Source: Empedobacter brevis NBRC 14943 = ATCC 43319
Lineage (GTDB): Bacteria > Bacteroidota > Bacteroidia > Flavobacteriales > Weeksellaceae
Assembly: GCF_000382425.1 (NCBI RefSeq)
Contig: NZ_KB908292.1
Location: 310,001 to 374,000 of the forward strand
Direction of reading: 5' to 3'
Length of the DNA stretch: 64,000 bases
Part shown: positions 768-36,023 of the stretch, in pieces
Layout of the letters: every line of letters starts with the position of its first letter
Numbering within the stretch: the first letter of the stretch is position 1
Made by a program: the position numbers and the translations under genes
The notes under the pieces: generated by a model
Told to the model about the DNA's origin: nothing
Databases searched by the model: none
The model's input: the letters and a program-made list of their open reading frames with translations, nothing else

Positions 768-1082
768 ATGGGGTTTTATCTCTACAAGGGGCTGAAAAAG
801 CCTCTTGTATTTTTCGGATTGAAAGGAAAGTACATTTTTTATGCTGTGGGTATTATCGCAGGTGGTGTCGTAAGCTCCCTTATCTTATCCAAATTCGGAT
901 TGTTAGGTTCTTTGCTTGGACTTGGTGTAACCGCAGGGTGTGTTTATCTCATTTTTAAAAGGCAGGACAAATACGGATTGTATGACAAAACCAAAAACTT
1001 CAATCAGATTTTAATTTTTCCCAAAAGGATAAGCAACAAAACACGATTAAAACGAAATGAAAACAAAAAAGCAAGCATTTGA
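768..1082 (+). CDS. traF: Conjugative transfer protein TraF (DUF4133)
   Basis: A 104-residue protein matching the Bacteroidetes TraF/DUF4133 family, a VirB3-like inner-membrane component of the conjugation channel. It opens with GFYLYKGLKKPLVFFGLKG, the family's typical amphipathic start, followed by two hydrophobic helices around residues 25-70 and a basic tail. An upstream TTG at 744 is in frame, but ATG at 768 is preferred because it begins exactly at the family N-terminus and sits 1 nt after the traE stop. The 3' end overlaps the traG start by 26 nt, indicating translational coupling with the ATPase that normally works with VirB3. Confidence 0.85.
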   Translation: MGFYLYKGLKKPLVFFGLKGKYIFYAVGIIAGGVVSSLILSKFGLLGSLLGLGVTAGCVYLIFKRQDKYGLYDKTKNFNQILIFPKRISNKTRLKRNENKKASI

Positions 1083-4000
1083 TATTCCTTTTATCGGCTA
1101 CGATTATGGCAAAGATATGGGATGGGATTTTGATGTTCTTTTTGGACAATATGGAAATCCGGTTATCGGTATCAGTATCAAGAATAGTGTAGAACAGTAC
1201 TCGGCAGACCCCGATAATTATCTCCATTTTCATACAGTTCTCAATCAGGTCGTAGCCATTATCGGAGAAGGACGAATTGTTCAAAAGCTCGACCTGTTTT
1301 CAAAAAAGAAATACACAGCTGAACCATTCAATCAATTTTTACAGCAAAAATATTCAGAACATTTTGATGGGCGACTTTTTAAAACAATTGAAACGGTACT
1401 TCTCTTCACAGATATTATAGATGACAAGCTGAAAAAGAAAAACAAACAGTACGACTTTTCTGATAAAAGTTACAAAGAACTTCGGGACAAATGCCAAAAA
1501 GTATTTATGCTTCTAAAGCAGAGCGATTGTGAGCCGGAATTCTTATTTGAAAAAGACTTTGAATACTATATTTCCGGGGCATTGTCAATGCAATTTACAA
1601 ATACACCATCTTTTGATAATATTAAAAGTACAAATGAGTATTTGCGAATCGGAAACCGATACGTTAAAAATATTTCCTACGTTGATGTTGAAAATATTGA
1701 TCTACCCTCTGAGATTGAACCTTATTCTATCTTGGGAGGTAACGGAGCAGCAGCAGAAACAGCAGTCGATAATTTTACGTTCATCAATGAGTTGGAAGAT
1801 TACGAAACGATTATTTACAATCAGGTTATTACCATTCCACCACAGGCACAGCAGCAAAGGGAACTCGACAAAAAAAAGAAAAAGCATGAAGGAGCAGCCA
1901 ATAATTCACCATCCAATGCCATTATCGCAGAAGAGATTGGGACGCTTTTACATCATATCGCCATTGATGGACAACTCGTTGTCAATGCTCATTTTTCTAT
2001 TCTGTTTTCAGCAGAAACACTGGAAAAAATGGAAAATATCCAGTCAATGATTGAGAATAAGCTTTTCACCAAAGGTATCAAAGTTTCGCAAAATGCCTAC
2101 AATCAATTGGAGCTTTTTCGTGCTGCAATTCCGGGCAATGCGACGGAACTTAGGGAATACGATTTATTTATGACAACAAGCGAAGCAGCCTTGTGTTTTT
2201 TTTTTAAAGAGTGTTACCCCGTGAATGAAGAATCGAACTTTTATTTAAGGTTTACAGACCGACAAGGTGTTCCTCTAAAAATAGACCCGGCAGATTTACC
2301 GATGAAAACAGGAAGAATCAACAACAGAAATAAGTTTGTTCTCGGTCCTTCAGGTAGTGGAAAATCTTTCCTGATGAATAATATCATCGAACAATATTTG
2401 ACCTACAATTATGACGTGGTGATTGTTGATACCGGAGATTCTTATTCGGGAACCTGTAAATACAAAGGCGGAAGATATATTCAATATACAGAGGAAAAAC
2501 CCATTACGATGAATCCATTTCTGATGGACAAGAAAGAATTCAATATTGAAAAAATCGAATTTTTAACCAATTTGATTTTTTTGATCTGGCAAGGTCCCGA
2601 CGCATCTGTATCTGCTGCACAGAAATCCATCCTGGATAATGTATTGATGTCATATTATCACCAGTATTTCAACAAAGGAACGCAGTGGTATGAGAATAAG
2701 AGTTCGGAAGATCTGATTCTTTATTTGAATAAATACAACATTTATGAAGAAGATATTTATGAAGAATTTGAGAATGAAGTAAACAAGCAAAATAGCTATT
2801 ACGATATTTTGGGAATCGCTTTTGATGCAGATGCACAAGAAATTAAAGAAGCCGGAAGAAAACTTTTGAAACGTTATCATCCCGATAAAAACCTTCATAA
2901 TCCCGATTATGACAGCGAGAAATTTTATAAGGTTTTTGAAGCCTACGAAATACTGAATGATGAAAACCGAAGAAAAATCTACAATGAAACCCGGTTAGCT
3001 CTCATTACATCCGATGAAATTATTAAAAGACCTGAAACAGCTGAAGAGTGGAATGAATCATTCAGAAAAGCCATTATCAAAAAAATCAAGGAACTTGAAG
3101 AAAAATTAGAATCAAAAGAACTTTCTTTCAATGGATTCTATGATTATTGTGATAAATTCCTTCCACTTTATCTGAATAATAAAAAGCATACGATCACAGA
3201 AAAAGAATTTAATCTGAGAACTTTTTTGTTTGTACTGAAAGATTTTTACAAAGGAGGACGATACGGAACCACTTTGAATGAATCAGCCGATAATACACTG
3301 TTTGATGAATCGTTCATCGTGTTTGAAATCGATAATGTAAAGGATAATCCAAAATTGTTTCCGATTGTAACGCTGATCATTATGGATACATTTATCCAGA
3401 AAATGCGATTGAGAAAAGACCGCCGAAAAGCCCTTATCATTGAAGAAGCGTGGAAAGCGATAGCGAGTAAATTAATGGGTGGTTATATTCTTTACTTGTA
3501 TAAAACGGTTCGAAAATTCTGGGGAGAGGCAGTTGTGGTCACACAAGAATTAGACGATATTATCGGAAATGCCGTGGTAAAAGACAGTATCATCAACAAT
3601 TCCGATACCTTCATTTTACTTGACCAGACCAAATTCAAAGATAATTTTGACCGTATTGCGGCTTTACTTTCATTGAATAAAGTGGAGCAAAATAAGATTT
3701 TCACCATTAACAATCTGAACAATAAATCCGGACGAAGCCGATTTAAAGAATTTTATCTCAAGCGAGGTTCTAAAGGAGAAGTCTATGGAAACGAAGTTGC
3801 CCTTGAGCAGTACTTGACCTACACGACAGAAAAACCTGAAAAATCCGCAGTTGAATACTATGTGCAAAAATATGGCAACTATGATGAAGCCTTGGTTAGA
3901 ATGGTAGATGATTTGAAAAGTTTCGGAGACAGCCTTGAAAACCTGGTGTCTTTAGTTAATCTGTACCAGAAGCCTTTAGACAAAAAAATTATTTCGTATT

Positions 4001-4122
4001 ACAAGATGATGAAGAATACCTATAAAGGGGAAAATATTTTCAAAATCATTTCACAGGAATTGGAAGACCAAAATATCAGTTTTTCTGAATTAATTAATCA
4101 AAAAGAATATGAAAAAGTTTAG
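1057..4122 (+). CDS. traG: TraG/VirB4-family conjugation ATPase with an inserted J-domain
   Basis: The energising ATPase of the Bacteroidetes conjugation system, acting at the inner membrane. Walker A lies near residues 429-437 (GPSGSGKSF) and Walker B near residues 792-798 (ALIIEEAW), followed by the VirB4 motif VVTQELDDI. At 1021 residues it is clearly longer than the roughly 800-850 usual for TraG. The excess is explained by a J-domain of about 65 residues at 579-645, with the order YYDILGI, a basic helix II, HPD at 608-610 and a C-terminal helix ending in the NDENRRKIY type, placed between Walker A and Walker B and flanked by charged helical linker. The frame is uninterrupted and overlaps traF by 26 nt and the next gene by 14 nt. 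A run of ten T at 2196-2205 lies in the coding region. The ATPase call is firm; the role of the J-domain is unknown. Confidence 0.9.
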   Translation: MKTKKQAFDIPFIGYDYGKDMGWDFDVLFGQYGNPVIGISIKNSVEQYSADPDNYLHFHTVLNQVVAIIGEGRIVQKLDLFSKKKYTAEPFNQFLQQKYSEHFDGRLFKTIETVLLFTDIIDDKLKKKNKQYDFSDKSYKELRDKCQKVFMLLKQSDCEPEFLFEKDFEYYISGALSMQFTNTPSFDNIKSTNEYLRIGNRYVKNISYVDVENIDLPSEIEPYSILGGNGAAAETAVDNFTFINELEDYETIIYNQVITIPPQAQQQRELDKKKKKHEGAANNSPSNAIIAEEIGTLLHHIAIDGQLVVNAHFSILFSAETLEKMENIQSMIENKLFTKGIKVSQNAYNQLELFRAAIPGNATELREYDLFMTTSEAALCFFFKECYPVNEESNFYLRFTDRQGVPLKIDPADLPMKTGRINNRNKFVLGPSGSGKSFLMNNIIEQYLTYNYDVVIVDTGDSYSGTCKYKGGRYIQYTEEKPITMNPFLMDKKEFNIEKIEFLTNLIFLIWQGPDASVSAAQKSILDNVLMSYYHQYFNKGTQWYENKSSEDLILYLNKYNIYEEDIYEEFENEVNKQNSYYDILGIAFDADAQEIKEAGRKLLKRYHPDKNLHNPDYDSEKFYKVFEAYEILNDENRRKIYNETRLALITSDEIIKRPETAEEWNESFRKAIIKKIKELEEKLESKELSFNGFYDYCDKFLPLYLNNKKHTITEKEFNLRTFLFVLKDFYKGGRYGTTLNESADNTLFDESFIVFEIDNVKDNPKLFPIVTLIIMDTFIQKMRLRKDRRKALIIEEAWKAIASKLMGGYILYLYKTVRKFWGEAVVVTQELDDIIGNAVVKDSIINNSDTFILLDQTKFKDNFDRIAALLSLNKVEQNKIFTINNLNNKSGRSRFKEFYLKRGSKGEVYGNEVALEQYLTYTTEKPEKSAVEYYVQKYGNYDEALVRMVDDLKSFGDSLENLVSLVNLYQKPLDKKIISYYKMMKNTYKGENIFKIISQELEDQNISFSELINQKEYEKV

Positions 4123-4762
4123 CATTTTATTTTTAGGAATTGGAAGTTTAGGCTTTGCTCAAAACACTTACATCGACCCGACTGTAACAGCGGCGATGAT
4201 CCTATATTCGGAAAACCTGAAAGCCAAGCAGAATGATGTCGTAGAAGAAACCTCTAAATTGAAAGATGCCCAAACATGGGTAGGCACTCAAATGGTTGCA
4301 GCCAATGACATTCAGAATAAACTACTGAAAGGGTTGAAAGAAGTTTCGGGAACCTTACAGAACGGGATTCAGTTAAAGGAAATCAATTCCGAACTTAATA
4401 AATGTTACACGTATTCTTATGAGGTTGTTAAGTTAGCATCAAAGCATCCCCAGTATGCCATTTTTGGAACGAAAGCTTCACAAAAAACATATGAGCAGAG
4501 TATAAAAATCGTAACCGATGTATCAGATATTTTGGCTTCAGGAGAGCTTAATCTTGCTACGGCAGGAGATCGGTATAAAATACTTCATAACATTTCCGGA
4601 AATGTAAAAAACCTGAAGCTTTGGCTTCTGGCGATAAAATTAAGACTGGAAAAAGCCAATCGGTTGGGATTCTGGAATTCCATCAATCCGTTTGCAGGAT
4701 ACATCAATACCGATAAAGCTATTGTAGAGGATATCATGCACCGATACAAACGAAACTTTTAA
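4109..4762 (+). CDS. TraI-position secreted transfer protein, copy 1 of 4
   Basis: A 217-residue protein with a signal peptide (hydrophobic residues 4-16, ending GFAQ) and an otherwise helical, soluble body. It sits directly after traG, where CTnDOT-like elements carry traI (a DUF4141-type protein thought to correspond to VirB5/TrbJ minor pilus subunits). The C-terminus INTDKAIVEDIMHRYK recurs in altered form in the next three genes, so this is the first member of a tandem family. The internal motif SKHPQYAIF also recurs in copy 3 as SAQHPQHAV. Its start overlaps the traG stop by 14 nt. The traI identity rests on position and general character rather than a recognised motif. Confidence 0.6.
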   Translation: MKKFSILFLGIGSLGFAQNTYIDPTVTAAMILYSENLKAKQNDVVEETSKLKDAQTWVGTQMVAANDIQNKLLKGLKEVSGTLQNGIQLKEINSELNKCYTYSYEVVKLASKHPQYAIFGTKASQKTYEQSIKIVTDVSDILASGELNLATAGDRYKILHNISGNVKNLKLWLLAIKLRLEKANRLGFWNSINPFAGYINTDKAIVEDIMHRYKRNF

Positions 4763-4772
4763 AAATCATACG

Positions 4773-5489
4773 ATGAAAGTGAAAATCAAACTTCACCGAT
4801 TTATCAGAAGTAGCATTTTTCTGAGTTTACTGATTCCTGTACTATTTGTCGTGTTGACTTCTATGGGAGGTGGATCTACACCACCGTGGCAAAAAGAAAA
4901 CGTTTCTTTTCCGATGATGAATATTCAAATCAATGCAGCGATGAAAGAACACGACAGGCAAAAGGAAATGAGGCAAAAACAAACCCTAAACGCAACTGTG
5001 GAAACAGCAAACCAATCAGAGTGGAAAGGTTTTAAAGAAAAGGTTACGAAAATTCAGGACCGATTGCGGATTGTTTCATTTGCTATTCAGGCAATACCTA
5101 CCGGAATTGCGATAAATAGGGAAATAACGAAAATAAAGAATAACCAGACAGCAATCATGAACGAGATCGGCACAGCACCTTATTCCATCATTTCTGTATT
5201 GCCTTCCCAGGTGCAGTTTGTCGATGAGCTACAAATGGTAACACGCCTGATAACCGGAATTGTTTTGTCTTACGGAGCAATCAACCAAATGGAAAAATCA
5301 GAACGTAAAATTTTACTGGATTATGCACTAAGCGAAGTCAAAACATTAAGCAGGAATTCTACCCATATGCTTTTAAAAATAAGAGACATTAAAGCCAAGG
5401 TTTTACGCAATAAAAGGGCATTCCAATTTTACGTCAACCGTGATAAACAAGTAGTTGAAAACATTATGAAAAACATTAAATCTTTTTAG
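4773..5489 (+). CDS. TraI-position transfer protein, copy 2 of 4 (membrane-anchored)
   Basis: A 238-residue protein with a basic N-terminus and one strong hydrophobic segment (residues 13-31), which could be an uncleaved anchor or signal peptide. The body is predicted helical, and the C-terminus YVNRDKQVVENIMKNIKSF is the divergent form of the motif shared with the neighbours. It begins 10 nt after copy 1 and stops 2 nt before copy 3. Compared with copy 1 it lacks the SKHPQ motif, so it is the more distant relative. By position it is part of the channel-assembly operon between traG and traJ; no specific function can be assigned. Confidence 0.55.
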   Translation: MKVKIKLHRFIRSSIFLSLLIPVLFVVLTSMGGGSTPPWQKENVSFPMMNIQINAAMKEHDRQKEMRQKQTLNATVETANQSEWKGFKEKVTKIQDRLRIVSFAIQAIPTGIAINREITKIKNNQTAIMNEIGTAPYSIISVLPSQVQFVDELQMVTRLITGIVLSYGAINQMEKSERKILLDYALSEVKTLSRNSTHMLLKIRDIKAKVLRNKRAFQFYVNRDKQVVENIMKNIKSF

Positions 5490-5491
5490 GC

Positions 5492-6157
5492 ATGAAGAAA
5501 AAATTAACTATTGGGTTATTTGCACTCTTAGGAATCTCTCTCTATAGTCAGCAAATCGTGATCAATGACAAACTATTAACTCAAATAACAAAGGATCATG
5601 CGGTACGATTGACAAGTGAACAGCTATTTCTGAATTCCTACGAAAAACAAAATGAGCTGTATAATAACATCAAAAATAAAACAGCCCAGGTAATTGCTAT
5701 TCAGGAGTACATCTACCAGCAGTTGAAAAATGTTAATTCAGCCCTTACACAGAGTAAAAAGCTGATCTATCTCTATGAGTATCTGGGGAAAATAGTAACG
5801 AACTCTAATAAAATGCGAAAATTATCGGCACAGCATCCGCAGCATGCCGTATTGGTTTCAAAATATTACGCAGCAATCGGTAGGCAGGTAACAAAGCTTC
5901 AGCAGGAAATATCACAGGATATTTTAAACGAAAACAAAGATTTTTTGATGGATGCGATGGACAGGGAAATGCTGATTGAAAAGATTTTTACGCGTGTCAG
6001 AAATATCAACGGAAATATTCTCTATATCATTTTGCGATTGGAAAATGCCAAGAAAATCCCTTACCTGTATCAGGTTCCTGTACTAAGAAACTATATCAAT
6101 GTAGACAAAGCCATTGTAGGAAACATTATTCAAAAATATAAATACCTATTCAATTAA
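5492..6157 (+). CDS. TraI-position secreted transfer protein, copy 3 of 4
   Basis: A 221-residue protein with a clear signal peptide (MKKKLTIGLFALLGISLYSQ) and a helical body. It resembles copy 1 most: both have a K/N-rich helical first half, the motif pair SKHPQYA / SAQHPQHA, a RNINGNILYIILRLE versus GNVKNLKLWLLAIKLRLE segment, and the C-terminal motif INVDKAIVGNIIQKYKYLF. The gene is packed 2 nt after copy 2 and 4 nt before copy 4. Tandem copies of a periplasmic, VirB5-like protein would be consistent with a surface or tip subunit of the mating apparatus, but that is inference. Confidence 0.55.
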   Translation: MKKKLTIGLFALLGISLYSQQIVINDKLLTQITKDHAVRLTSEQLFLNSYEKQNELYNNIKNKTAQVIAIQEYIYQQLKNVNSALTQSKKLIYLYEYLGKIVTNSNKMRKLSAQHPQHAVLVSKYYAAIGRQVTKLQQEISQDILNENKDFLMDAMDREMLIEKIFTRVRNINGNILYIILRLENAKKIPYLYQVPVLRNYINVDKAIVGNIIQKYKYLFN

Positions 6158-6161
6158 TATT

Positions 6162-6992
6162 ATGGAAAAGCTATTCAAAAAAATAAGTCTCTTACCGTTA
6201 TTGCTCCTTACAGTTTCAATGTACGGACAGGTAAGTGTAAAACGATTAAATGACCCTGCTATTGTCGCCCAGCATAAGAGAATGACCTTTGAAAGATGGG
6301 GAGATTGGCGGCCTTATCCTAAGTATTTTTTAGGCATTCAGAGAAATGTTGCCTACGCTACAGTTTGGGGAATGTGGGCACCGAAGATTAACAGGGATTA
6401 TAAAAAAGGAGATGATATAAGACCTTTAAAACCAACGGGAATACAAAACCAACGGTTTGCTGAGCTTAAATTCCAGGAAGAAGAAGCAAAGAAAATCAAG
6501 GCAGCATCCGACACTATTTATAAAAGAAGTGTTCAGGATTTTGCCCACTGGACTTCTACTACGGTTGACGCAGACCCCCTTTGGCTCTTGTATTACAAAC
6601 GGATGTTAAAACCCATTACAGAGTTTCCCGATGCACCACAGAATTTTATCCAATGGCGGTTGAAAGGCCAAGTAATTTACGAAATACTTAAAACCACAGG
6701 CACTTTAAAAAGGCTTCAGGAAGAACTGGATTTAATAAAAGAAAAATACGAGATGTCCCGATCTATGGATATGCCCAGAGGAAAACGTTTCGTCATGTAT
6801 CATGAAACCCTTATCAGGTGGCGAAAATTTGAACAGGAATTAAAAAGGTATAGCAATAAGACGACACTTCTTTTAGATTACAAAATGCTTTTAAAAAACC
6901 ATTCTTCTACCACCATACCACAGGGATTTACACCTCAAACGGATAAAGAGATTATACATAACAAAATGCAACACTACAAACACCGATATTAG
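6162..6992 (+). CDS. TraI-position secreted transfer protein, copy 4 of 4 (divergent)
   Basis: A 276-residue protein with a signal peptide (hydrophobic residues 8-20, ending SMYGQ). Its first half is unlike the other three copies, being rich in aromatic and Trp residues (WGDWRPYPKYFLG, VWGMWAPKINRDY). The second half returns to a helical layout and ends QTDKEIIHNKMQHYKHRY, the same closing motif (DK, then a paired hydrophobic, an M/I and YK) as the preceding genes. The stop is immediately followed by the traJ start at 6993. It is probably a periplasmic channel component that has acquired a different N-terminal domain. I do not recognise the family. Confidence 0.5.
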   Translation: MEKLFKKISLLPLLLLTVSMYGQVSVKRLNDPAIVAQHKRMTFERWGDWRPYPKYFLGIQRNVAYATVWGMWAPKINRDYKKGDDIRPLKPTGIQNQRFAELKFQEEEAKKIKAASDTIYKRSVQDFAHWTSTTVDADPLWLLYYKRMLKPITEFPDAPQNFIQWRLKGQVIYEILKTTGTLKRLQEELDLIKEKYEMSRSMDMPRGKRFVMYHETLIRWRKFEQELKRYSNKTTLLLDYKMLLKNHSSTTIPQGFTPQTDKEIIHNKMQHYKHRY

Positions 6993-8252
6993 ATGATAAA
7001 TAAAAAACTCACGCTATTTTGCTGCATTCTGGCAATTTTATTACCGGTAATCGGCTTTGCTCAAACTGATGCTGATTATAACAATCTGCTTCAGTTTTTG
7101 AAGGGAGACGGAGCTTTCGAGAAATGGTTTATGGAGGTCTTTACAAAACTAGACAACAAAGTACAGGATGAAGCAGTAGGATCTGCACTTGTCGGAAGAG
7201 CCATTGGTGGTCTGGGAGCTTTAATGTATCTCGGATATATGGGCTGGCAAATGGCAGCCGGAGACCGTGAATGGGAAATAACGCCTATGCTGAAACCTAT
7301 CCTGATAGGATTTACACTGGTGTATTGGAGTGGATTTGTCAATTTGATACAAGCTCCTTTTGAAGCTATTGCCGAGCCCGGAATTGCCATTTTCAGCGAC
7401 ATTGAATCCGAAGTGAATGATTTGCGTGTTCAACGATTTAAAAAACAACAGCAGTTGCTGGATGCCGTGATCAAACTAAAAGCAGAAGAAGATGCCAAGC
7501 AAGACGTTATTAACAATACGGGCAAAGATGCCGATGATTCGTGGTTTGATATCAGCGAAGGATTGGACAAATTAATTCAGCCCATTAAAGAATGGCAGAT
7601 TAGAATGCAGTTTCAGATGCAGAAACTGGTAGCCGAACTCATTGAGTTTGTCTGCCTATCCATTCTTCGGGTTTGCGTGTATCTTATTTTCTTCATCCAA
7701 AAGATCTGGGCGTATATACTCATTATTCTTGGCCCTATTGCTGTTGGAATGTCTCTTGTTCCGGGATTTGAAAACTCGTTATACAGCTGGGTATCCAAGT
7801 TTATCAACATCAATCTGTACACTTTTGTTGCGTACACCATTATCAATATCGGACAGCAACTCATCGCTTCCGGTTATATGATGGAAATTGAGCGGTACGA
7901 CACCCTGTTAACAAATGGAACGATCTCCAATTTAGATGCTTTGCTGGTGTATGTAAGTAATTCCGGAATGATTTATAACCAGCTTTTTACGTGCGTTGCC
8001 TATATCGTAACGGGAATAGGTGTCTTAATGACCCCGACCATAGCCGATACTATCGTAACAGCAGGCGGTGCCGGTGCAATGACCAAGATGAAAAGTGCAG
8101 CAGGAAAAATGGTAAGCGGTGCCAAAACAGCCGTATTGGCAGCTAAAACAGGAGGTGCTTCCACAGTTGTAGCAGCTAAGACAGCTTCAAAAGCTGCTGA
8201 GCTAAGTTCCGCTTTCGGAAGAGTTCAGAACGCAATGAAAAATGGAAAATAA
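6993..8252 (+). CDS. traJ: Conjugative transfer protein TraJ (VirB6/TrbL-like)
   Basis: A 419-residue polytopic inner-membrane protein with the layout of the Bacteroidetes TraJ family. It has a signal peptide ending GFAQ, a periplasmic segment, membrane spans near residues 65-90 and 100-115, a charged central stretch with KAEEDAKQD, then a cluster of membrane helices (about residues 215-350) and an Ala-rich basic tail (residues 360-419). VirB6/TrbL proteins form part of the inner-membrane channel for DNA. It starts directly at the preceding stop and is followed by traK after 33 nt, matching the traJ-traK order of CTnDOT-like elements. Confidence 0.85.
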   Translation: MINKKLTLFCCILAILLPVIGFAQTDADYNNLLQFLKGDGAFEKWFMEVFTKLDNKVQDEAVGSALVGRAIGGLGALMYLGYMGWQMAAGDREWEITPMLKPILIGFTLVYWSGFVNLIQAPFEAIAEPGIAIFSDIESEVNDLRVQRFKKQQQLLDAVIKLKAEEDAKQDVINNTGKDADDSWFDISEGLDKLIQPIKEWQIRMQFQMQKLVAELIEFVCLSILRVCVYLIFFIQKIWAYILIILGPIAVGMSLVPGFENSLYSWVSKFININLYTFVAYTIINIGQQLIASGYMMEIERYDTLLTNGTISNLDALLVYVSNSGMIYNQLFTCVAYIVTGIGVLMTPTIADTIVTAGGAGAMTKMKSAAGKMVSGAKTAVLAAKTGGASTVVAAKTASKAAELSSAFGRVQNAMKNGK

Positions 8253-8285
8253 TAAAACGTAGTCCTAACAATTAATCCCTAAAAA

Positions 8286-8900
8286 ATGCTTATCAGAAAC
8301 ATAGAACAACGAATTAAAATCAATAAAGTTGTTTCATTATCAGCCATTGTATTTGCTGTTTTTATCGTCATCAGTGGTTTTGTCTTTGCGTATAAAATGA
8401 TCCAGGATTCCCGAAAATCCATTTATATTTTGGACAATGGCGTTCCGGTTTTAGCCAAACAAACCGATGTTTTACTAAACAGGCCAGTGGAATACAAAGC
8501 GCAGATTGAATTATTTCATCGTTTGTTTTTCACATTAGCTCCGGATGACGCCTATATTAAAGAAAATATTCAAAAATCATTGTATCTCATAGACGACAGT
8601 GGAAAAAAAGAATATACCAACTTACGGGAAAAAGGGTTTTACAATCAGATTGTTGCCTCGAGTTCAATGGTTAGCATCCATACCGATTCGATAGCAGTCA
8701 ATATGGAACAACAGAAATTCTCTTTTTTTGGAAAACAAATGATAACAAGAAAATCGTCTGTCATTACCCGAAAATTGATTACTGAAGGATTTTTTGAAGA
8801 CATTATCCGAAGTCCTCATAATCCGCATGGTGTACTTCTCAAAAGCTGGCGAATCCTTAATAACGAAGAAATCTCAAATCAAACCAAAAATTCGTATTAA
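8286..8900 (+). CDS. traK: Conjugative transfer protein TraK (VirB8-like)
   Basis: A 204-residue bitopic protein with a short cytoplasmic N-terminus, one membrane span (about residues 16-36) and a periplasmic domain of about 165 residues, the classic VirB8/TraK architecture. Family features visible include the opening IRNIEQRIKINKVVSL, the SRKSIYILDNGVP segment after the membrane span and RPVEYKAQIELFHRLFFTL. VirB8 proteins nucleate assembly of the channel by contacting VirB9 and VirB10, here represented by TraN and TraM a few genes downstream. TraL starts 2 nt after its stop. Confidence 0.9.
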   Translation: MLIRNIEQRIKINKVVSLSAIVFAVFIVISGFVFAYKMIQDSRKSIYILDNGVPVLAKQTDVLLNRPVEYKAQIELFHRLFFTLAPDDAYIKENIQKSLYLIDDSGKKEYTNLREKGFYNQIVASSSMVSIHTDSIAVNMEQQKFSFFGKQMITRKSSVITRKLITEGFFEDIIRSPHNPHGVLLKSWRILNNEEISNQTKNSY

Positions 8901-8902
8901 AA

Positions 8903-9292
8903 ATGAATGCTTTTTTCAAACAAACCGGAAGAAAATGGCTGGATTGGGCTGTTACAAATCCCAAAAAGTTTTTTACCTATTCCATGCTTTTTTTATCGGT
9001 CTCATTCGTCATCTCCATGATACAGGGAATTTTCTTTCCCTCTGAAGCCGCATTTAAAATAAAGCCCCCAATGCTGTATTCCAAAAGCAATACAAGTCAA
9101 AACACAATTGTAAAGAATGAAAAGGAAATGGAAAAAATAGTCAATGAGCTTAAAACCCTGAAAGTAAAAAGAGATCAGAATGCTTTACAAAGAGAAGACA
9201 GTCTGAGAATTGAATATTTGTTTAACCACTATCAAAAATTAAAAAATGCCGGTAGCACCGGAAGCAATTTATCTAAAAATCAAAAAGAATGA
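8903..9292 (+). CDS. traL: Small membrane protein in the traL position
   Basis: A 129-residue protein with one membrane span (about residues 20-40) following a short cytoplasmic segment, then a periplasmic region with a coiled-coil-prone charged stretch (residues 65-110, many K, E, L). TraL of CTnDOT-like elements is a similarly small one-span protein (DUF3989) between traK and traM, and this gene occupies that slot. Its last 4 nt overlap the traM start. The symbol is given from position and topology; sequence similarity to TraL is not obvious to me. Confidence 0.6.
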   Translation: MNAFFKQTGRKWLDWAVTNPKKFFTYSMLFLSVSFVISMIQGIFFPSEAAFKIKPPMLYSKSNTSQNTIVKNEKEMEKIVNELKTLKVKRDQNALQREDSLRIEYLFNHYQKLKNAGSTGSNLSKNQKE

Positions 9293-10485
9293 AAAAAATT
9301 GATTTCAAACAAAAAAAATACATTTTGCCTCTTCTGGCGCTGCCATTTTTGCTCCTTTTTGTGTATGTAGGTACTCAGTTTGCAAAAGAGGATACTTCAG
9401 AAAAAGATAAAACCAAGGAGCTTTCCATTTCTTTAGGCGAATCCAAAGATTCCATTATGACAAAAGATGATGCCTATGATGCGTTTTTTAAAAAAGACGA
9501 CAACAGAACCATGCTGGAAGGGCTGAATAAAGAAGAGGACAGCTTGTTAAGCTATGAGGATCAGCTTTCATTAGACCAAAAAAGGAAGATCGATTCGTTA
9601 AAAGATGTCAGGGGAAGGCAACAAACTTATCAGGCAAAAGTAAATCCGTCATCGTATTATAATCCTAAAAATCAGCAAGACGACGATTACAAACGATCTT
9701 CGGATATTATCAGAATGCTCAATGATAAATCTTACGGAAAAACGGAAGATCATGACGTAGCAGAACAACCGAAAGCAAACAATCAGAATGACCCTGTCAA
9801 CTATTTGAAACAACAAATGCTGGTCATGGATTCGTTGGAAAAAGCAAGAGATCCCGAGTATCAAAAAGAACTTTTAGTAGAACAGAAATTAAAAGCCAAT
9901 AAAGAAAAAATGGATGCATTTCTTAATTCTACATTCAATGTCAGCAAATCCGGGATAAATAACGGATTCAATGCTTTCTACAAAGAAAAGGAAAACAGTT
10001 TTATAAAAGCTGTGATTGATGAAGACAACAAAGGTTTTTTGGGAAGCAGAATCCGATTTCGATTACTGGAAGACATTTTTGTGGGAAACCGGAAAATAGA
10101 AAAAGGCACTATATTATATGGGCTAATCTCCGGATTTTCAATGCAAAGGGTCAATCTTACGATTGTATCCGTATTTACTAGAGGAGAGATTTATCCTGTT
10201 AATCTTTCGATTTATGACATTGACGGTATGAAAGGATTGTATGTTCCTGAGAGTGTCTTTAGGGATATGCTTCGGGAAATGGGGAGTAATTCCGTTCAGG
10301 GAACCCAAATGGATATGGGCGGAGAAGGATTTTTTACCAGTCTTGGCGCTAAATTATTTACATCGACCTCAAAATCCATTGCCAATCTGATTAAAACGAA
10401 CAAAGCCAAACTGAAATACAATTCGTATGTCTTTCTGATTGATGAAAAACAACTAAAAAATTCACAAAACCAACAAAATAAATAA
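9289..10485 (+). CDS. traM: Conjugative transfer protein TraM (VirB10-like)
   Basis: A 398-residue protein with an N-terminal basic stretch, a single membrane span (about residues 11-28), a long charged low-complexity periplasmic linker (about residues 30-215) and a C-terminal beta domain with IRFRLLEDIFVGNRKIEKG and ILYGLISGFSMQRVNL, which is the signature of the Bacteroidetes TraM family. TraM corresponds to VirB10, which bridges the inner and outer membranes and senses ATP use by the coupling protein. It overlaps traL by 4 nt and is followed by traN after 4 nt. Confidence 0.9.
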   Translation: MKKIDFKQKKYILPLLALPFLLLFVYVGTQFAKEDTSEKDKTKELSISLGESKDSIMTKDDAYDAFFKKDDNRTMLEGLNKEEDSLLSYEDQLSLDQKRKIDSLKDVRGRQQTYQAKVNPSSYYNPKNQQDDDYKRSSDIIRMLNDKSYGKTEDHDVAEQPKANNQNDPVNYLKQQMLVMDSLEKARDPEYQKELLVEQKLKANKEKMDAFLNSTFNVSKSGINNGFNAFYKEKENSFIKAVIDEDNKGFLGSRIRFRLLEDIFVGNRKIEKGTILYGLISGFSMQRVNLTIVSVFTRGEIYPVNLSIYDIDGMKGLYVPESVFRDMLREMGSNSVQGTQMDMGGEGFFTSLGAKLFTSTSKSIANLIKTNKAKLKYNSYVFLIDEKQLKNSQNQQNK

Positions 10486-10489
10486 GAAA

Positions 10490-11356
10490 ATGAGAACGAT
10501 GATCTATACGCTGTTTCTGTTTACAGCCAACTTTTTAACGGCACAAACGGCAACGAAAGAACAAGTTATTTCGGATTTACCGGAAATAGAAATTACCAAA
10601 GGAATCAACCTGCATATTATTTCACCTGAACCCATTCAATATGTGGATTTATCAACAGAAAAACTAACGGGAGATTTACCGGCTTCCACGATCGGTAGAA
10701 TTAAAATTACAGATCATTCGGAAGAAGAAAAGGAAAAGACCAAACAATCAGCTCCTTTTTTTATTGGAGAAAATATCGGAATTATTACCGTAGTAGGTCA
10801 GTCTTTTATTGCGCAATACAAGGCGGTCTACAGAAATCCTAAAGATGTGAATACGGTTACCAATATTCATATTCAGCCCGAAGATATGCAACCTATTGAG
10901 TTTGATAAAATGACTTTTTCTCATCTGGAACTGAGAAAATTTGCATGGAACATTATTCAGAATAAATCAGATAAAAATCCGATTAGAGAAGAAAAAAATC
11001 TAAAATTAAATGTAAGACTCAACAATGTATACGTGATGAGTGATTATATCTTTTTGGATATGACTTTTCAGAATAACACCAATTTAAGCTATGATATGGA
11101 AGATTTAAAGTTTTCCATAGAAGATAAAAAAATCCACAAAGCAACAAACAATCAAAGCGTTGAAATGATGCCGATTTTTCGACTGAATCAGCAAAAACAT
11201 TTTAGAAAGAATTTCCGAAATATTTATGTGTTCAAAAAATTCACTTATCCAAATTCTAAAGTGATGATGATCCGCCTGATTGAAGAACAGCTTTCAGGAA
11301 GAACCATTGAAATGAAAATCAACTATTCTGATATTCTTAAAGCAGATACATTTTAA
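10490..11356 (+). CDS. traN: Conjugative transfer protein TraN (VirB9-like, DUF4138)
   Basis: A 288-residue secreted protein with a signal peptide ending LTAQ. It contains EITKGINLHIISPEPIQYVD near the mature N-terminus and a C-terminal beta domain with NNVYVMSDYIFLDMTFQN, matching the TraN/DUF4138 family, the VirB9 counterpart that forms the outer-membrane collar with VirB10/TraM. In CTnDOT-like elements traN follows traM, as here. Unlike CTnDOT, no traO-traP-traQ follows; the coupling ATPase comes next instead, which marks this as a different element subfamily. Confidence 0.88.
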   Translation: MRTMIYTLFLFTANFLTAQTATKEQVISDLPEIEITKGINLHIISPEPIQYVDLSTEKLTGDLPASTIGRIKITDHSEEEKEKTKQSAPFFIGENIGIITVVGQSFIAQYKAVYRNPKDVNTVTNIHIQPEDMQPIEFDKMTFSHLELRKFAWNIIQNKSDKNPIREEKNLKLNVRLNNVYVMSDYIFLDMTFQNNTNLSYDMEDLKFSIEDKKIHKATNNQSVEMMPIFRLNQQKHFRKNFRNIYVFKKFTYPNSKVMMIRLIEEQLSGRTIEMKINYSDILKADTF

Positions 11357-11391: not shown

Positions 11392-13377
11392 ATGCAAGAA
11401 CAACAACATCAGATTAAAATTTACGGATTCCTGCAAAAAGTAGTGTATGCTGTTGTCGCATTGGATTGTGCATCGCTTTTTTATCTCAATGCTGATATTC
11501 CGGTTGTGTCCAATCTTTTAAAGAATTTTTCTAAACTGAGTTTTATTTCACCACCAATCAATGCCAAGTTTGCGACACTCATTTTGATTGGTTTAGTTTC
11601 AGTGGGTACAAAAGCAAAGAAAAAGAAAGACTTACATGTTGGGATTGAGATTGTGCTGCCAATGGTCTTAGGATTGGTCATGATTTTTTCATCACTGATT
11701 TGGCAGGGCGAAGCCGGAAATACCGAGCTTCCTAAACTATTTCCGGGGATGAATCTCTATCAGGTCATTTATACTGTTTTATCCTTTTTAGGAGCGGTTA
11801 TTCTTCAGATGGGAGCAGATTCTATCTCGAAATACATGCGTCAGAAAATGGGAAAAGACCGTTGGAATGTAGAAGAAGAAAGTTTCGACCAAAATAAAGA
11901 GCTGATCGATACAGATACAAGCATCAATATTCCGTACCTGTTTCGGTACAATGGAAAAAATAATAAAGGTTGGATGAACATTAATCCGTTTCGCGGAACA
12001 ATGGTCATTGGAACACCAGGTTCCGGTAAATCTTTTGGCATCATTAATCCGGCCATCCGTCAAATGATTGCGAAAGGCTTCTGTCTATGTATCTACGACT
12101 TTAAATTTCCTGACTTGGCACAGATTGCCTATTATCATTATTTATTGAAAAAAAGCAAAGATTCGGGTTATCATTACAGCTTTCATGTGGTTAATCTGAA
12201 TGAAGTCGAAAAATCAAAAAGAGTCAATCCGTTCAAAAAAGACTATGTAAAAACCTTAGCAGAAGCGCAAGAAATGGCGGAAGCAATGGTTTCATCCCTT
12301 CAAAAAGGTGGTGCAAGCGCCGGAGGTGGTTCAGATCAGTTCTTTACACAATCTGCTATTAATTTTCTTTCGTCTTGTATTTATTTCTTTGCTACGCACG
12401 AAAATGGAAAATATTCGGATTTACCTCATATTCTTTCCTTTATGAACCGTAGTTATAAAGAAATTTTCGATACGCTTTTTCATCATGAAGAATTGTATTC
12501 GCTTCTTTCACCTTTCAAAACGGCTTATGATAACAAGGCATTTGATCAATTGGAAGGACAGATAGGAACGCTTAAAATTTTTCTTTCACGATTAGCAACC
12601 AAAGAAAGTTTCTGGGTGTTTTCAGGTGATGAAGTAGAATTAAAAATTACAGATAGAGATAATCCGTCCATTATTATTCTGGCTTCTGACCCGGGTACAC
12701 AGGATATTAATTCCGCCTTGTATTCCGCCGTTTTAAACAGAACATTACGTTTGATAAACTCTAAGAAAAATTTACCCGGAGGAATTATCGCCGATGAGTT
12801 TCCAACGATTTACATTCATAAAATTGACAATGTAGTAGCTACGGCAAGAAGCAACAGAGTGGCTGTTTTGTTGGGACTTCAGGAAATACCACAACTTCGA
12901 CAGTTTTACAAAAAAGAAGTTGCAGACACCATTTCTGCTATTGTCGGAAATATCATTTCCGGTTCAGCGAGGGATAAGAATACGTTGGACTGGTTGGAGA
13001 AACTTTTTGGGAAAATAAAGCAAAAAACATATTCCCAATCCATATCACAGCAGGGAACTACAACAAGCATTAATGAAAAAATGGATAATATGATTCCTGC
13101 CGGAAAAATTGCAGCCTTAAAAACCGGTGAAATGGTCGGAATGATTGCGCAGGGTGAAGAAGTTACACAAGAGTATAAAACATCAGCAATAAGTGGGAAA
13201 ATCAATCTCAATATGAATGCGATTAAAAAAGAAGAAAACAGTTATCCTAAAATGCCCTCCTACTATTCTTTTGTGGATAAAGCAGGAAACAGTCGTAAAG
13301 AAGATGTTTTAATGACCAATTTCAGAAAAATAAATAAAGAAGTCGAACTAATTGTAAACGAACTTATAAGAGCGTAA
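11392..13377 (+). CDS. VirD4/TraG-type coupling protein (type IV secretion, MobC-like)
   Basis: A 661-residue coupling ATPase that would bring the relaxase-DNA complex to the channel. Three to four hydrophobic segments fill the first 150 residues. Walker A is at about residues 208-214 (TPGSGKS), followed by the family motif LCIYDFKFPDLAQIAYYHY; Walker B is GGIIADEFPTIY, with the downstream VATARSNRVAVLLGLQE motif typical of TraD/VirD4 proteins. In CTnDOT this gene (mobC) lies with the mobilisation genes; here it is within the tra operon after traN. The stop codon overlaps the start of the M23 peptidase. Confidence 0.88.
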   Translation: MQEQQHQIKIYGFLQKVVYAVVALDCASLFYLNADIPVVSNLLKNFSKLSFISPPINAKFATLILIGLVSVGTKAKKKKDLHVGIEIVLPMVLGLVMIFSSLIWQGEAGNTELPKLFPGMNLYQVIYTVLSFLGAVILQMGADSISKYMRQKMGKDRWNVEEESFDQNKELIDTDTSINIPYLFRYNGKNNKGWMNINPFRGTMVIGTPGSGKSFGIINPAIRQMIAKGFCLCIYDFKFPDLAQIAYYHYLLKKSKDSGYHYSFHVVNLNEVEKSKRVNPFKKDYVKTLAEAQEMAEAMVSSLQKGGASAGGGSDQFFTQSAINFLSSCIYFFATHENGKYSDLPHILSFMNRSYKEIFDTLFHHEELYSLLSPFKTAYDNKAFDQLEGQIGTLKIFLSRLATKESFWVFSGDEVELKITDRDNPSIIILASDPGTQDINSALYSAVLNRTLRLINSKKNLPGGIIADEFPTIYIHKIDNVVATARSNRVAVLLGLQEIPQLRQFYKKEVADTISAIVGNIISGSARDKNTLDWLEKLFGKIKQKTYSQSISQQGTTTSINEKMDNMIPAGKIAALKTGEMVGMIAQGEEVTQEYKTSAISGKINLNMNAIKKEENSYPKMPSYYSFVDKAGNSRKEDVLMTNFRKINKEVELIVNELIRA

Positions 13378-17173: not shown

Positions 17174-17857
17174 ATGAAACCAATAATACCATTCTTTTAT
17201 CTGTTTCTTCTTTTCATAAGCAGTTCCTGCCATAAAAAAGAAATTCAATCCGAAAAAGGCGGAATCGATATGATTTCCAATATCTATTTCGATGCATCTA
17301 AAGGCTTGGAGAAACTTCAAAGTTTTCATTTGTCTAAAATAAATTATTCAGGAGACACCATTATAGAGTTGGTTCCCGATTTTACCTTTCCTGAAATCAA
17401 TCAAAGCTTACATTACATCAAAGATTCGATTTATTATTCTCTTGATCCGCAAAACAATGCCGTTATTCTCTCCGAAATGACCAAAACCCAAAATCCATTG
17501 TCCATTTGGAATAAAAAAGAAGGAGCCGTCTTTTCAATGGAAGAAATTCCGAATTACCAAAACAGAAGAAATTTATCAGACACCATTTTATTTAAGAAAA
17601 AATACAAACGTTTTGAAATCAATTCTCCGTGGAGTTATACCCGTTTTTATATTTATCAGACCGACACGATTCTACCGTATTCACTGTACAAGCACGCCGA
17701 AAATGATTATGGAGGACGACTGGAACGTATTGATTCCTACAATAAAAAAGAAGACATTTTTGTAACACTTCAACTCATTCCCAGAAAAAGCTGGGATGAT
17801 ACAGCAAAAGAATTATTTGAATTTAATCACTTTGTAAAAAACAGAAAAAATGAGTAA
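17174..17857 (+). CDS. Small lipoprotein of unknown function
   Basis: A 227-residue protein beginning with a lipoprotein signal (hydrophobic FFYLFLLFI followed by SSSC, the probable lipobox, then HKKE). The mature part is a mixed alpha/beta domain with no motif I know. ATG 17174 is chosen over an upstream TTG at 17147 because it starts the signal peptide properly and lies outside the terminator hairpin. The stop overlaps the helicase gene start by 8 nt, so the two are coupled. In conjugative elements small lipoproteins in this context often act in surface or entry exclusion, but nothing in the sequence shows that. Confidence 0.7.
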   Translation: MKPIIPFFYLFLLFISSSCHKKEIQSEKGGIDMISNIYFDASKGLEKLQSFHLSKINYSGDTIIELVPDFTFPEINQSLHYIKDSIYYSLDPQNNAVILSEMTKTQNPLSIWNKKEGAVFSMEEIPNYQNRRNLSDTILFKKKYKRFEINSPWSYTRFYIYQTDTILPYSLYKHAENDYGGRLERIDSYNKKEDIFVTLQLIPRKSWDDTAKELFEFNHFVKNRKNE

Positions 17858-20800
17858 TCAAGACACTTTACCTGTTTTTTCTGATGATATTTCCGAAATG
17901 ATAGGAAGTAAAAACGAAATCATTGTATTTGAAAACAATAAGGATATGCTTTCCTTTTTAGAACTTCTAAAACTGAACAATCAAACCAATAACAGAACAC
18001 TTATTACGCTTAATTCTGTGTTAAATTCTAAGAAATTTCTAAACAGATACCAGAATTTTGAAGGTAAAATATTTCTATGTTTAAGCAGAAATAAAGCCGC
18101 AGATGCGGCAACCGGAAAAATTCTGAAGGAGTTTAAGCATAAAGACATCAAAGATGTACGTACATTATATGACATTTGTGAAACGGGACATGAAAACCTA
18201 AGTGAATATTTAGAAAAGAAACTCAATCTTCAAAATAAAAATCCTATTTTAGTAGAACCTAAAAATCCAAAAGATGCAAATCGTATTAGATCCGAAGGAA
18301 TTTCCAAAACTCAGCAAGTGGAATCCGGAACATCTCGACAAAACGCTGGACAATCTATCGAGAAAAGCAAATCCGAACAAAACGAAAATCACACAGGAAG
18401 ACAAAATGTGGGCAGCAACCATGCTGGAAATGGACTTGCAGGCACAGAGCGGAGCGATTCGGGAAGAACCCGAGGAAGACCCAATGACAACACACAACAA
18501 AATGATGCTGGAAAAAATGCAACAAGAGAACATTCCCTGGGCGGAATCTTATCCGGGGGAATTATACCCGATAGATCAGGAAGAGGATTAAATTCATCGG
18601 TTCAAAATGAAGGGAATTTAGAAGTTCTCCTTTCAAAATACAAAGGTCAGAAGCTGACAAATGAACAAGTTGCAGAAGTCGTTTTTGCAGCTTGTTTTGT
18701 TTCTAATGACAATCAAATTCTTCTAAAAGAAAATCTTAACATTACCGAAGATTTAAAAGCCATCTGCAATCAGTACAAATCTGGTGGAACAGCAAAAGAA
18801 GGTCGGGGTATTCTTGATGAATATTACACCGATCAAAAAATAATTGATGCTGTTAAAAATCTTATTAAAGATAATTTCAAGGATAAAAAATCCATTTCGG
18901 TTCTGGAGCCAAGTGTTGGTACCGGAAACTTTATCAATCTTACAAAAGAGTTAAATAGTCCAACTTCGATAACAGGATTTGAAATAAACGAAACAACCGC
19001 TAAAATTACCAAAATACTTCATCCCGAAGCGGCTATTCATCTTCGTTCTTTTGAAACGGAATTTATTAATGAAAATGGCGGTAAAAAGGATTTTGCACAA
19101 GCGTACGATTTGGTGATCGGCAATCCGCCTTATGGGGAACACAGAGGTTATTACAAAGGATTGGGTGAAGAACCCAAAGTATCTAAATACGAGGACTATT
19201 TTGTTAAACGGAGTTTAGATGTTTTAAAAGACGGAGGAACTTTGGCAATGTTACTCCCATCGGGATGGCTGAATAGACAAAAAAGTTTGAAAAATGCTGA
19301 GATTTCTGAAGGTTTCCGATTGCCCAATGGCGCTTTTTCCGGAACACAAATCGGAACCGATATTATTATCCTCAAAAAGAATTCTTTAAAGCAAACACAG
19401 GATATTTCGAATTATTTTAAAGGAAATCCTGAAAGGATTTTAGGGAAGATCAAAGAAAAAAGCAACCGTTTCGGGCGAATGGAAGAATATGTTTCGGGAA
19501 ATTTAGACGAAGCACTTCTAAAAATCGAACAGATTCGAAATAAAAAGCATACGACAGCAATACAAATGAGTTTGTTTGATATTCCTGAAGAAGATGAACC
19601 ATTTCTAGTGCAGAAAGAAGAACTGAATCAAGTTCCCGATTTAGTTTCAAAAGATATTCAAGAAAATACAAAGAAAAATATCGAAAATGTGCTGTTACAT
19701 CTAAACAACATCAAATTCAAAACACCGGCAATAAAATCTGAAATCAAAAAATATGAGAAATACCGAGATAATTCAGACGCTTTATCTTCAAAAGAATTAG
19801 AAAAAATTTCTACCGCTTCAGCAAAAATTTTAGAAAGATATTCGGGGAACGGAAATTCAGAATATAAAGTTCAGACACAACCGACTATTCAAAAAAAGAT
19901 TCTCAAATATCAATTTAAAAAAGAAGATACGATCGTTCCTACTTCTTTGCAAAACAGTCCTGATATTTCTCCTGACGAATTAGAAGCTTTCCGGGATACC
20001 AATTACGAGGGAGTTTTGAATAAAAACGGTAAATTCCGTCAATATGCCAATTATATTGATGGGAAATGGATTCACGATTTTTATTACGCAGAAGGAAATA
20101 TTTATAAAAAGTTAAAGCAATTAGAAATTGATTTTAAATCTTCTTTTTCGGAAGGATATTCTGAGGTGCAATATGCAAAACAAAAAGCATTATTGGAAAA
20201 AGTCCTTCCTAAAGCCAAAACGTTGGATGAGATTTCAATCAGTCCAAACCATGAATTTGTACATCAATTTGATTTAGGTACCATTGAAAAGGAAAGATGG
20301 AACAGTAATTCCCGAACAACGGAAACCGTAACAGAACAATATAATTTAGCAGAAAAGTTTAAAGATTTTGTAAGCAATTTACCGTCTGAAGCTTTTCAAG
20401 GTTCTTCGTCTTGGGAAGTTCGTCAATTTGTCGATAATGAAACAGTAACAGGAAGCGACAAAGAACGAAATGCTTTAGTGCGTGAAAGACGAAAAGAAGC
20501 TGCAAATGATTTGTTTGGAAAATTTATCCATGAAGAACTTTCTGATGATTTACGGGAACGATTTGTCAAAGATTTTAATCGAAATTACAATAATATCCAC
20601 GTTCCGGATTATTCAAAGTTTCCGTTGTTTTCAAAAATTTACCAAAATTTCAAAGGAAAACCACTGCAATTAACCGAAGTTCAGAAAGGTGGAATCGGAA
20701 GAATGACCACGAAAGGCGTCGGACTTTTGGCGCACGAAGTTGGTTTTGGAAAAACACTTTCAGGTATTCTCTCGATGCATGAAGCAATGGAGAGAGGAAA

Positions 20801-22955: not shown

Positions 22956-22980
22956 AAGCTTTACTAAAACTCATAAAATA

Positions 22981-23010
22981 ACCAAAGGTAGACGTACGTC
23001 TACCTTTGGT
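22981..23010. terminator. Perfect 30-bp palindrome after the helicase-fusion gene
   Basis: ACCAAAGGTAGACGT is followed directly by its reverse complement, without a loop, 25 nt after the stop at 22955. It could fold as a strong hairpin terminator, although no T run follows, or be a binding site for a dimeric protein. The stretch from 23011 to the next gene at 23168 is AT-rich and shows nothing else. Confidence 0.55.
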
Positions 23011-23167
23011 GTTATTGTGAATGTTTAATTAATATATTGTGATACAATAATCAGAATACATCTGACTACCCAATTAAGGAAAGTCTCTATTAAATAAGTT
23101 TCTATCTGCTTCTAACCATATGCATGGTACTTTATTATAAAATAAGTTGCGCTAAAATAACATATCT

Positions 23168-23563
23168 CTATGAAATTTTTCTAAAACGGTCTCCCAAAAT
23201 AAAAAATATTACAATTATAAGTATAATAATAATCCAACTGATGATAATAAATAATGAAGCCTTTTTTTTAGGTAGTGCTTCGAATTCGATTAAATAAATT
23301 TTCCATTTTTCTGAGAAATCAAATATAATAATGTTTAATAAAATTATTACTCCACAAGGAATAAATACAATGGGCTCTGTTAAACTTAAGGTAGGCCTAG
23401 TTTTGTTAATTATAGAGTAACTAAAAATAATACAATAATAGATTAGTATTTTTATAATGATAAGAGAAAGCTCTGCTTTAAATTTAGAAAAAATTTTGGG
23501 AGCAGATATTTTCTCCCAAAATAATAATAACGTATAAAAGATAAAAAAATAAATTCTTTCCAT
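23168..23563 (-). CDS. Small membrane protein, probable immunity protein of the Rhs toxin
   Basis: A 131-residue protein with about four hydrophobic segments (residues 3-15, 32-50, 62-82 and 103-124), starting only 3 nt after the stop of the Rhs gene and last in its operon. A small gene directly downstream of a variable Rhs C-terminus is the classic place of the cognate immunity protein. A polytopic protein there suggests the toxin acts on, or at, the inner membrane. I do not recognise the family, and the immunity role is inferred from position alone. Confidence 0.55.
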   Translation of the reverse strand: MERIYFFIFYTLLLFWEKISAPKIFSKFKAELSLIIIKILIYYCIIFSYSIINKTRPTLSLTEPIVFIPCGVIILLNIIIFDFSEKWKIYLIEFEALPKKKASLFIIISWIIIILIIVIFFILGDRFRKIS

Positions 23564-23566
23564 TTA

Positions 23567-27292: not shown

Positions 27293-27297
27293 ATTGT

Positions 27298-30630: not shown

Positions 30631-30633
30631 GTG

Positions 30634-32133: not shown

Positions 32134-32134
32134 A

Positions 32135-33067: not shown

Positions 33068-33071
33068 CTGT

Positions 33072-33827: not shown

Positions 33828-34446
33828 ATTACTTATATTTCTATTGTTGTTTTAATTTTGATTTTTTTTGATAAAGAAGAGAACTCATCTTATAACCTGT
33901 TACCTGTTTACGGAATTTGACTTCTATAAAAATAATTGGCATTCTATCCTATGAAAGATTCTTTTAAAGATTTAGAACATAAACAAAAAAACATGGTTTA
34001 CCTCCACAGATTTTGTTTTTAATATGCACAGTAGATAACTGAAAGTATTTTCAAGTGGAAAAGTTCTGTATAGTTTGATTTTAGTTACAGAAACGCTCTT
34101 AAAGTTGGAAGGTATAACCTGAATATATTCAGAAAATCTATTCTTATTGTTAAACAAAGTCAGAATATTCAGGAGTAGATGATTTATCATATTTTCTAGA
34201 TCAGTAAAAAATGATTACAAATCTAAACAAAATGTTAAAAGAAAAATAAATAAAAAACACAACTTTTATCATGTCAAGCATTTATTTAAGAAACAACAGT
34301 GGTAAATTATACACCGCAACTCTTATTAATAATTACCGTAATTGTTTTCTAAGAGTTTAAAATAAAATTTTCATACAATCACAATAAACAAATTCCCTAA
34401 CCTCAATTTTGAAGAGGTTAGGGAATTTTATCATTTGAAATTTTGA
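33828..34446. other. 619-bp gene-free stretch upstream of the Rhs operon
   Basis: Very AT-rich. It contains no convincing gene: the 72-codon frame at 33972-34190 (- strand) is unsupported. One - strand promoter-like -7 element (TAnnTTTG type, read as CAAATCTA on the + strand at 34218-34225) is present without a matching -33 element. The terminator at 34391-34427 closes the opposite end. Confidence 0.5.
34391..34427 (-). terminator. Terminator after the GMC oxidoreductase gene
   Basis: A perfect 14-bp stem, AATTCCCTAACCTC with GAGGTTAGGGAATT, and a 9-nt loop, 20 nt beyond the GMC gene stop on the - strand. It ends in TTTG-TTTATT on that strand. Confidence 0.8.
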
Positions 34447-36000: not shown

Positions 36001-36023
36001 TTTTATGTGGTTTTTTAATGTTA

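Follow-up and report, generated by a model that had tools for sequence, protein, structure and literature searches.

Why should the motor ATPase of a conjugation machine carry a J-domain, and what could the domain do there? The question is raised by traG (1057..4122, forward strand, as are the parts of the gene given below), which lies in a stretch of 64,000 nucleotides of Empedobacter brevis NBRC 14943 = ATCC 43319 (contig NZ_KB908292.1, positions 310,001 to 374,000), referred to here as the window. The open reading frame (ORF) and its profile matches define a VirB4-type conjugation ATPase of 1021 amino acids with an internal J-domain. TraG scores 427 bits with P-loop_TraG of Pfam (PF19044, cut-off 25.8) and 474 bits with the NCBIfam model of the TraG family conjugative transposon ATPases (TIGR03783, cut-off 261.55), and has the N-terminal fold of VirB4. 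Within it the Pfam DnaJ profile (PF00226) matches residues 580-643 (2794..2985) over all 63 profile positions and scores 68.3 bits (E 6.2e-19; cut-off 27.8), in agreement with the original prediction for this DNA, which had read a full J-domain at about residues 579-645. The HPD tripeptide, which had been placed at residues 608-610, is found there (2878..2886) by sequence, alignment and predicted fold, in the loop that joins helix II to helix III. Likewise, the J-domain does lie between Walker A (GPSGSGKS, residues 430-437, 2344..2367) and the Walker B region (LIIEE, residues 793-797, 3433..3447), both located by eye. A profile search of the E. brevis genome finds DnaJ domains at four places, of which the J-domain of TraG is one (73.4 bits at C2:312794-312985).

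Compared with sister TraGs, the whole insert covers approximately residues 541-688 (2677..3120) and consists of a helical linker, the J-domain and a second helical linker. The flanks '...YY' and 'LSFNGFY' are separated by 166 residues in the window TraG versus 21 in ordinary TraGs, and the insert of about 145 residues takes the place of a short loop. The estimate of a protein some 190 residues longer than usual is thus only partly accounted for by the domain: TraG exceeds the second, ordinary TraG of its own genome (L115, 838 amino acids, without the J-domain insert) by 183 residues, only about 145 of which are at the J site. The second TraG is one of the J-less members found in a survey of homologues; the J-domain is not present in all TraG proteins, which by the criterion of the original prediction would have made it ordinary. 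An AlphaFold2 model of residues 500-735 gives a four-helix J-fold at a mean predicted local distance difference test score (pLDDT) of 77, with helices at 581-585, 593-607, 620-634 and 636-653; the linkers on both sides are predicted to be helical, and the position of HPD in the predicted helix II-III loop suggests that it is accessible. No G/F-rich region or C-terminal client-binding domain was matched by Pfam in TraG up to an E value of 1. As TraG sequence borders the J-domain on both sides, the protein falls outside classes A and B of DnaJ proteins; if it is to be classed among J-proteins at all, it would presumably be of the class C type.

Conservation was followed in an alignment of 91 traG genes that carry the J-domain (J-TraG genes), all encoding distinct proteins, 74 and 16 of them from genomes and one from a plasmid record. 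Identical proteins, broken genes, rows with fewer than 55 residues in the J columns, frames shorter than 940 amino acids (first two surveys) or 600 amino acids (later searches), and L120, a locus with a degenerate J segment, were left out. HPD is kept in 91/91 genes, with silent variation among its codons (His 78/13, Pro 31/31/21/8, Asp 66/25). The J segments, 69 of which are distinct, show pairwise identities down to 34% with a median of 70%, and besides HPD the residues Y582, L585, Y630, L633, R639 and Y642 are invariant in all genes. The pooled Nei-Gojobori ratio of nonsynonymous to synonymous change (dN/dS) of the J-domain is 0.020 over the 96 of 4095 pairs with a proportion of synonymous differences (pS) of 0.1-0.4, and 0.037 over the 286 pairs at pS 0.1-0.6. 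The two P-loop parts give 0.029/0.032 and 0.024/0.021, the flanking linkers 0.08-0.12, and among the closest pairs the value of the J-domain is well under that of its linkers; as the pairs are not independent of each other, all these values are descriptions rather than tests. Profile match, predicted fold, conservation and selection together support the conclusion that this VirB4/TraG motor contains a complete, folded and selectively maintained J-domain.

In the family of the host, 73 of 246 genomes gave a match of the J-TraG type by hand count (69-100% identity over the full length, or 58-88% in two frames), and one more genome (G022) carries the degenerate J segment of L120; the type was tallied by match, HPD being read at retrieved loci only. 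A survey of the order found a TraG match at E <= 1e-40 in 59 of 395 genomes, 20 of the 59 being of the J-TraG type (hand count), and a survey of the phylum found TraG in 39 of 395 genomes, three of the J-TraG type; in both surveys all J-TraG hosts belong to the same family. Among the best 80 of 112 matches the hosts include Chryseobacterium, Epilithonimonas, Kaistella, Cloacibacterium, Elizabethkingia, Riemerella, Weeksella, Halpernia and Capnocytophaga, the last being a host outside the family. J-TraG is also present on two complete plasmids, p1 of Chryseobacterium sp. JJR-5R and pWB8 of Sphingobacterium faecium, the latter with a J-domain of 80 bits in the Pfam DnaJ profile. In a tree built without the insert columns, all of the 20 J-bearing rows used and L120 form one clade (100/100) and the J-less sister TraGs fall outside it, which fits a single gain of the J-domain in the TraG lineage as the simplest reading. 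A 71-column tree of 42 J-domains, in which those of TraG branch apart from the DnaJ and CbpA types sampled, resolved no donor. The best 28 non-TraG J-domains with loci are at 45-52% identity and belong, bar one short frame, to proteins of DnaJ or CbpA length; phage J-domains are no nearer (37-49% among the best 15 of 66). Among the best 60 of 540 plasmid records with J-domains, H41 and H59 are annotated as TraG and many others are unannotated.

Based on these data we propose that TraG is a VirB4 motor whose once-acquired J-domain recruits host DnaK for a protein entering the transfer machine, a reading that we consider probable, if far from assured. J-domains are established to bring ATP-bound Hsp70 to a site and to trigger hydrolysis through HPD (available text of PMC7289447), and by analogy with this biology it is very likely that the J-domain of TraG binds and activates DnaK. 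According to our proposal, a conjugative element of Bacteroidota would have gained a J-domain in its VirB4 motor, in a loop between Walker A and Walker B, and the domain would bind ATP-loaded host DnaK chiefly via the basic face of helix II. HPD would then set off ATP hydrolysis, upon which DnaK would clamp on a polypeptide lying at the motor, and DnaK would thereby be gathered at the cytosolic base of the type IV secretion system (T4SS). The client would most likely be a protein entering the machine, i.e., the relaxase and possibly other co-transferred proteins, held or pulled unfolded at the channel entrance. The host genome encodes one full-length DnaK, outside the element that carries traG, and no Hsp70 match was found inside the element.

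As to the purpose of such recruitment, we tentatively place unfolding or holding of the substrate, the relaxase, ahead of assembly, pilin handling and a stress gate. Assembly or remodelling of the machine and pilin handling, taken together, are a possible purpose about which we are more doubtful. Unfolding of the relaxase is needed for transfer, and the accessible part of PMC5826034 describes the identity of the unfoldase as unclear and discusses the three ATPases of the machine itself as candidates; PMC11288057, in the portion available, assigns the unfolding to the ATPases at the channel entrance, citing PMC5826034. A J-domain fixed in one T4SS ATPase adds host Hsp70 as a further candidate and, if our proposal is true, the protein-folding state of the host and gene transfer would be in direct physical connection. 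The unfoldase question could then be reduced to one well-understood substitution, HPD to QPD, with the J-less TraGs as natural controls.

Several observations weigh against the recruitment of DnaK by TraG as we propose it. Ordinary TraGs are without a J-domain. The mean column entropy of the J-domain over the 91 genes is 0.90 bits versus 0.25-0.27 bits in the P-loop parts (0.65 bits in residues 1-250, 1.2-1.3 bits in the linkers), which indicates greater drift in the J-domain than in the motor core, with HPD and the J core remaining fixed. Helix II had been described as basic, which holds true of residues 597 (basic in 91/91), 601 (Arg or Lys in 91/91) and 602 (basic in 87/91), presumed by us to correspond to R22, K26 and R27 of DnaJ, and does not hold true of 594 and 598. 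The former, at the presumed position of DnaJ R19, is Asp or Glu in 80/91 genes, the latter, at the position of K23, is acidic in 81/91 and Glu in 73/91, and the position of DnaJ Tyr25 is occupied by Gly or Phe in 89/91. R19, K23 and K26 are three coevolving J-domain positions named in the available text of PMC5519331; as the positions of R19 and K23 are mostly acidic, K26 is the one of the three that J-TraGs have kept. The residues that form the interfaces between J-domains and Hsp70 differ from pair to pair (PMC7289447, same part).

L120 (G022, 4614-7607) adds to these points, as its TraG keeps Walker A and B and an intact-looking tra operon, yet its J segment is without HPD and scores 13.3 bits with DnaJ, under the cut-off. 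With HPD gone and the motor motifs in place, the J-domain is accessory and the motor family can manage without it; by the same token HPD decays when it is unneeded, and for that reason the fact that the remaining 91 genes retain it is meaningful. L120 forms a long branch, the exact position of which was flagged as unsure by the tree program, and it provides a natural loss-of-J control. In addition, in the sister clade the J site holds a short loop in L147-L151, L171 and L172, and inserts of about 105 residues, with no Pfam DnaJ match, in L169, L170 and L173, pointing to an insertion-tolerant loop in which an insert need not be functional. The latter three are encoded on plasmids of Mucilaginibacter and Bacteroides fragilis, and their inserts look helical by eye. 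Finally, the model of the whole TraG, built on a 30-row alignment of close relatives, has pLDDT values below 50 for residues 367-487 and 709-863, the P-loop being mostly at 20-40, and viral contigs, scanned twice for sequences of greater diversity, yielded nothing. As the P-loop part is modelled poorly, we make no claim on the placement of the J-domain relative to the motor ring or on the exposure of HPD in the assembled motor.

Among the alternatives, the one that survives best is that the J-domain recruits DnaK for the machine itself, either in assembling or remodelling the VirB4 ring (hexamer of dimers versus trimers of dimers) or in helping to extract pilin-like subunits from the membrane, which we regard as unlikely but deserving of weight. 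VirB4 powers pilus biogenesis and has been proposed to switch between two ring forms (PMC12624023, in the portion available), the complexes on which Hsp70s act include the RepA and RepE initiators, both dimeric (accessible part of PMC8215388), and it is VirB4 that bears the J-domain, not the coupling protein that recruits the substrate, in which no DnaJ match was found. Against a need of the machine itself stand ordinary TraGs that are without the domain and the HPD-less L120 that keeps its operon, and the sequence carries no information on the client. A regulatory sensor, by which the availability of DnaK under stress gates the motor or DnaK is titrated, tying transfer to the chaperone state of the host, seems improbable to us. 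The annotated neighbours give no hint of such regulation and sequence cannot tell sensing from client handling, whereas a domain that is constrained yet dispensable in one lineage, set between variable and predicted-helical linkers that could relay a signal to the motor, would suit a sensor. We give still less credit to the view that the J-domain is no more than a structural spacer or an insert carried passively by a loop that tolerates insertions. The other inserts of about 105 residues, the degenerate J of L120 and the greater variability of the J-domain than of the motor core over the whole set are in keeping with it, but a spacer would not keep HPD, which is retained throughout with silent codon change, and the low dN/dS in close pairs, the invariant R639 and the basic residues 597 and 601 likewise speak against it. 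Chance similarity, misassembly or fusion with a neighbouring dnaJ gene has next to no probability, being ruled out by the full-length profile match, the open frame and the recurrence of this architecture in two complete plasmids and in dozens of assemblies made independently.

The traG gene holds a further element, a T10 run at codons C380-F383 (2196..2205) that is a putative slippage site. In the 91 genes, 296 two-fold-degenerate columns have a conserved amino acid, and in four of them a single codon accounts for at least 98.5% of the sequences in which the residue is retained. These four are the consecutive codons C380-F383, no others; elsewhere in the gene Phe is encoded by TTT in 64%. The run is T10 in 89/91 genes and T9 in 2/91, and the longest T run at the site in 34 ordinary TraGs is at most 7. 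It is broken in L120, L147-L151, L172 and L173 and amounts to T9-T10 in the J-less L169-L171, showing that run and J-domain do not always go together. With a transcript slipped by one base in either direction, the window product would stop after the N-domain and before Walker A, at residue 383 or 388. The run looks like a selected site, probably of programmed transcriptional slippage or of a phase switch, from which a product with the N-domain but neither ATPase nor J-domain would arise. In six further copies traG is interrupted precisely at this run, five of them being split in two frames (L136, L212-L215) and one having an in-frame stop (L022). These could reflect phase variation, slippage-tolerated frames or homopolymer sequencing error, and the last could account for the six broken copies, yet not for the codon constraint. 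It is conceivable, if on the whole rather unlikely, that J-domain and T10 run define a DnaK-assisted lineage of conjugation machines, in which the J-domain would hold host DnaK at the base of the motor as an unfoldase or holdase for the relaxase and slippage would yield a mixed ring of J-bearing motors and bare N-domain scaffold subunits.

The traG gene sits in a conjugation operon on the forward strand, preceded by the genes of DUF4134 (446-766) and DUF4133 (744-1082). The rest of the tra operon (4109..11356) consists of small genes, mostly without a family, and includes a TrbL/VirB6-like gene whose match is below the cut-off (6993-8252), TraM (9289-10485) and DUF4138 (10490-11356). A VirD4-type coupling protein (TrwB_AAD_bind, TraG-D_C, YWFCY; 11392..13377) and an M23 peptidase gene close the described tra order. 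This is apparently an integrated conjugative element; its left part (L175) lies before the window and carries a tyrosine recombinase, a restriction-type methylase, MobC- and relaxase-like genes and ParA (labels by eye). As no exact repeat longer than 14 bases is common to L175:7900-8620 and window positions 22900-36500, and no tRNA was found in L175, the ends of the element are undefined. Next to the integrase, L175:10632-14470 encodes a methylase-like protein of 1041 amino acids and a partner of 238 amino acids (by eye), which may form a restriction-modification system that travels with the element. Near the element's end a protein of 1701 amino acids combines a helicase with an Eco57I-type methylase (17850-22955); it has distant relatives of 1805 amino acids on contigs C4 and C18 and resembles, as we assume, the large DarB-like proteins thought to travel with DNA. 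It is followed, at 23567-30630, by two very long minus-strand ORFs (1241 and 1110 amino acids) that are RHS/YD-repeat-like, and then by smaller surface-protein-like genes (by eye).

A literature search by titles and abstract openings, mostly outside subscription papers and with domain-architecture databases not included, found no description of a J-domain in VirB4/TraG among the papers listed, several of the lists being limited to the best 15 of 17, 15 of 48, 10 of 14 and 20 of 2,290. The terms DnaJ, DnaK, J-domain and Bacteroid do not occur in the main text of the T4SS nomenclature review, and the one paper found to join DnaJ domain, TraG and conjugative transposon concerns, in the part available, an unrelated gene. 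In comparison with known systems, the window TraG shares with the TraG family of Bacteroidota elements (TIGR03783, Bac_Flav_CT_G; PF19044; VirB4) a score above the family cut-off, Walker A and B and its place in the tra operon, and differs by the J-domain insert of about 145 residues, which is absent in the ordinary members examined. TrwK, the VirB4 of plasmid R388 (7o41, 8rtb, 8rtd), is not known to have a J-domain. With the J-domains of DnaJ and CbpA (Hsp40), including the DnaK-bound J-domain of 5nro, that of TraG has in common the fold, HPD and the helix I-IV signature. Unlike them it has no recognised G/F region or client-binding domain, is embedded in a motor and forms a branch separate from the sampled host-type J-domains. 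Sec63 of the endoplasmic reticulum and Pam18/Tim14 of mitochondria are J-proteins built into translocons, where they recruit Hsp70. Sec63 chains are weak sequence matches, and the likeness to TraG, offered as an analogy with no claim of membership, is that a machine for translocation has a J-domain attached to it for the recruitment of Hsp70. In Sec63 and Pam18 Hsp70 pulls on the far side, in import, whereas in TraG it would act on the near side, that of the donor, in export, and from a J-domain inside the ATPase itself.
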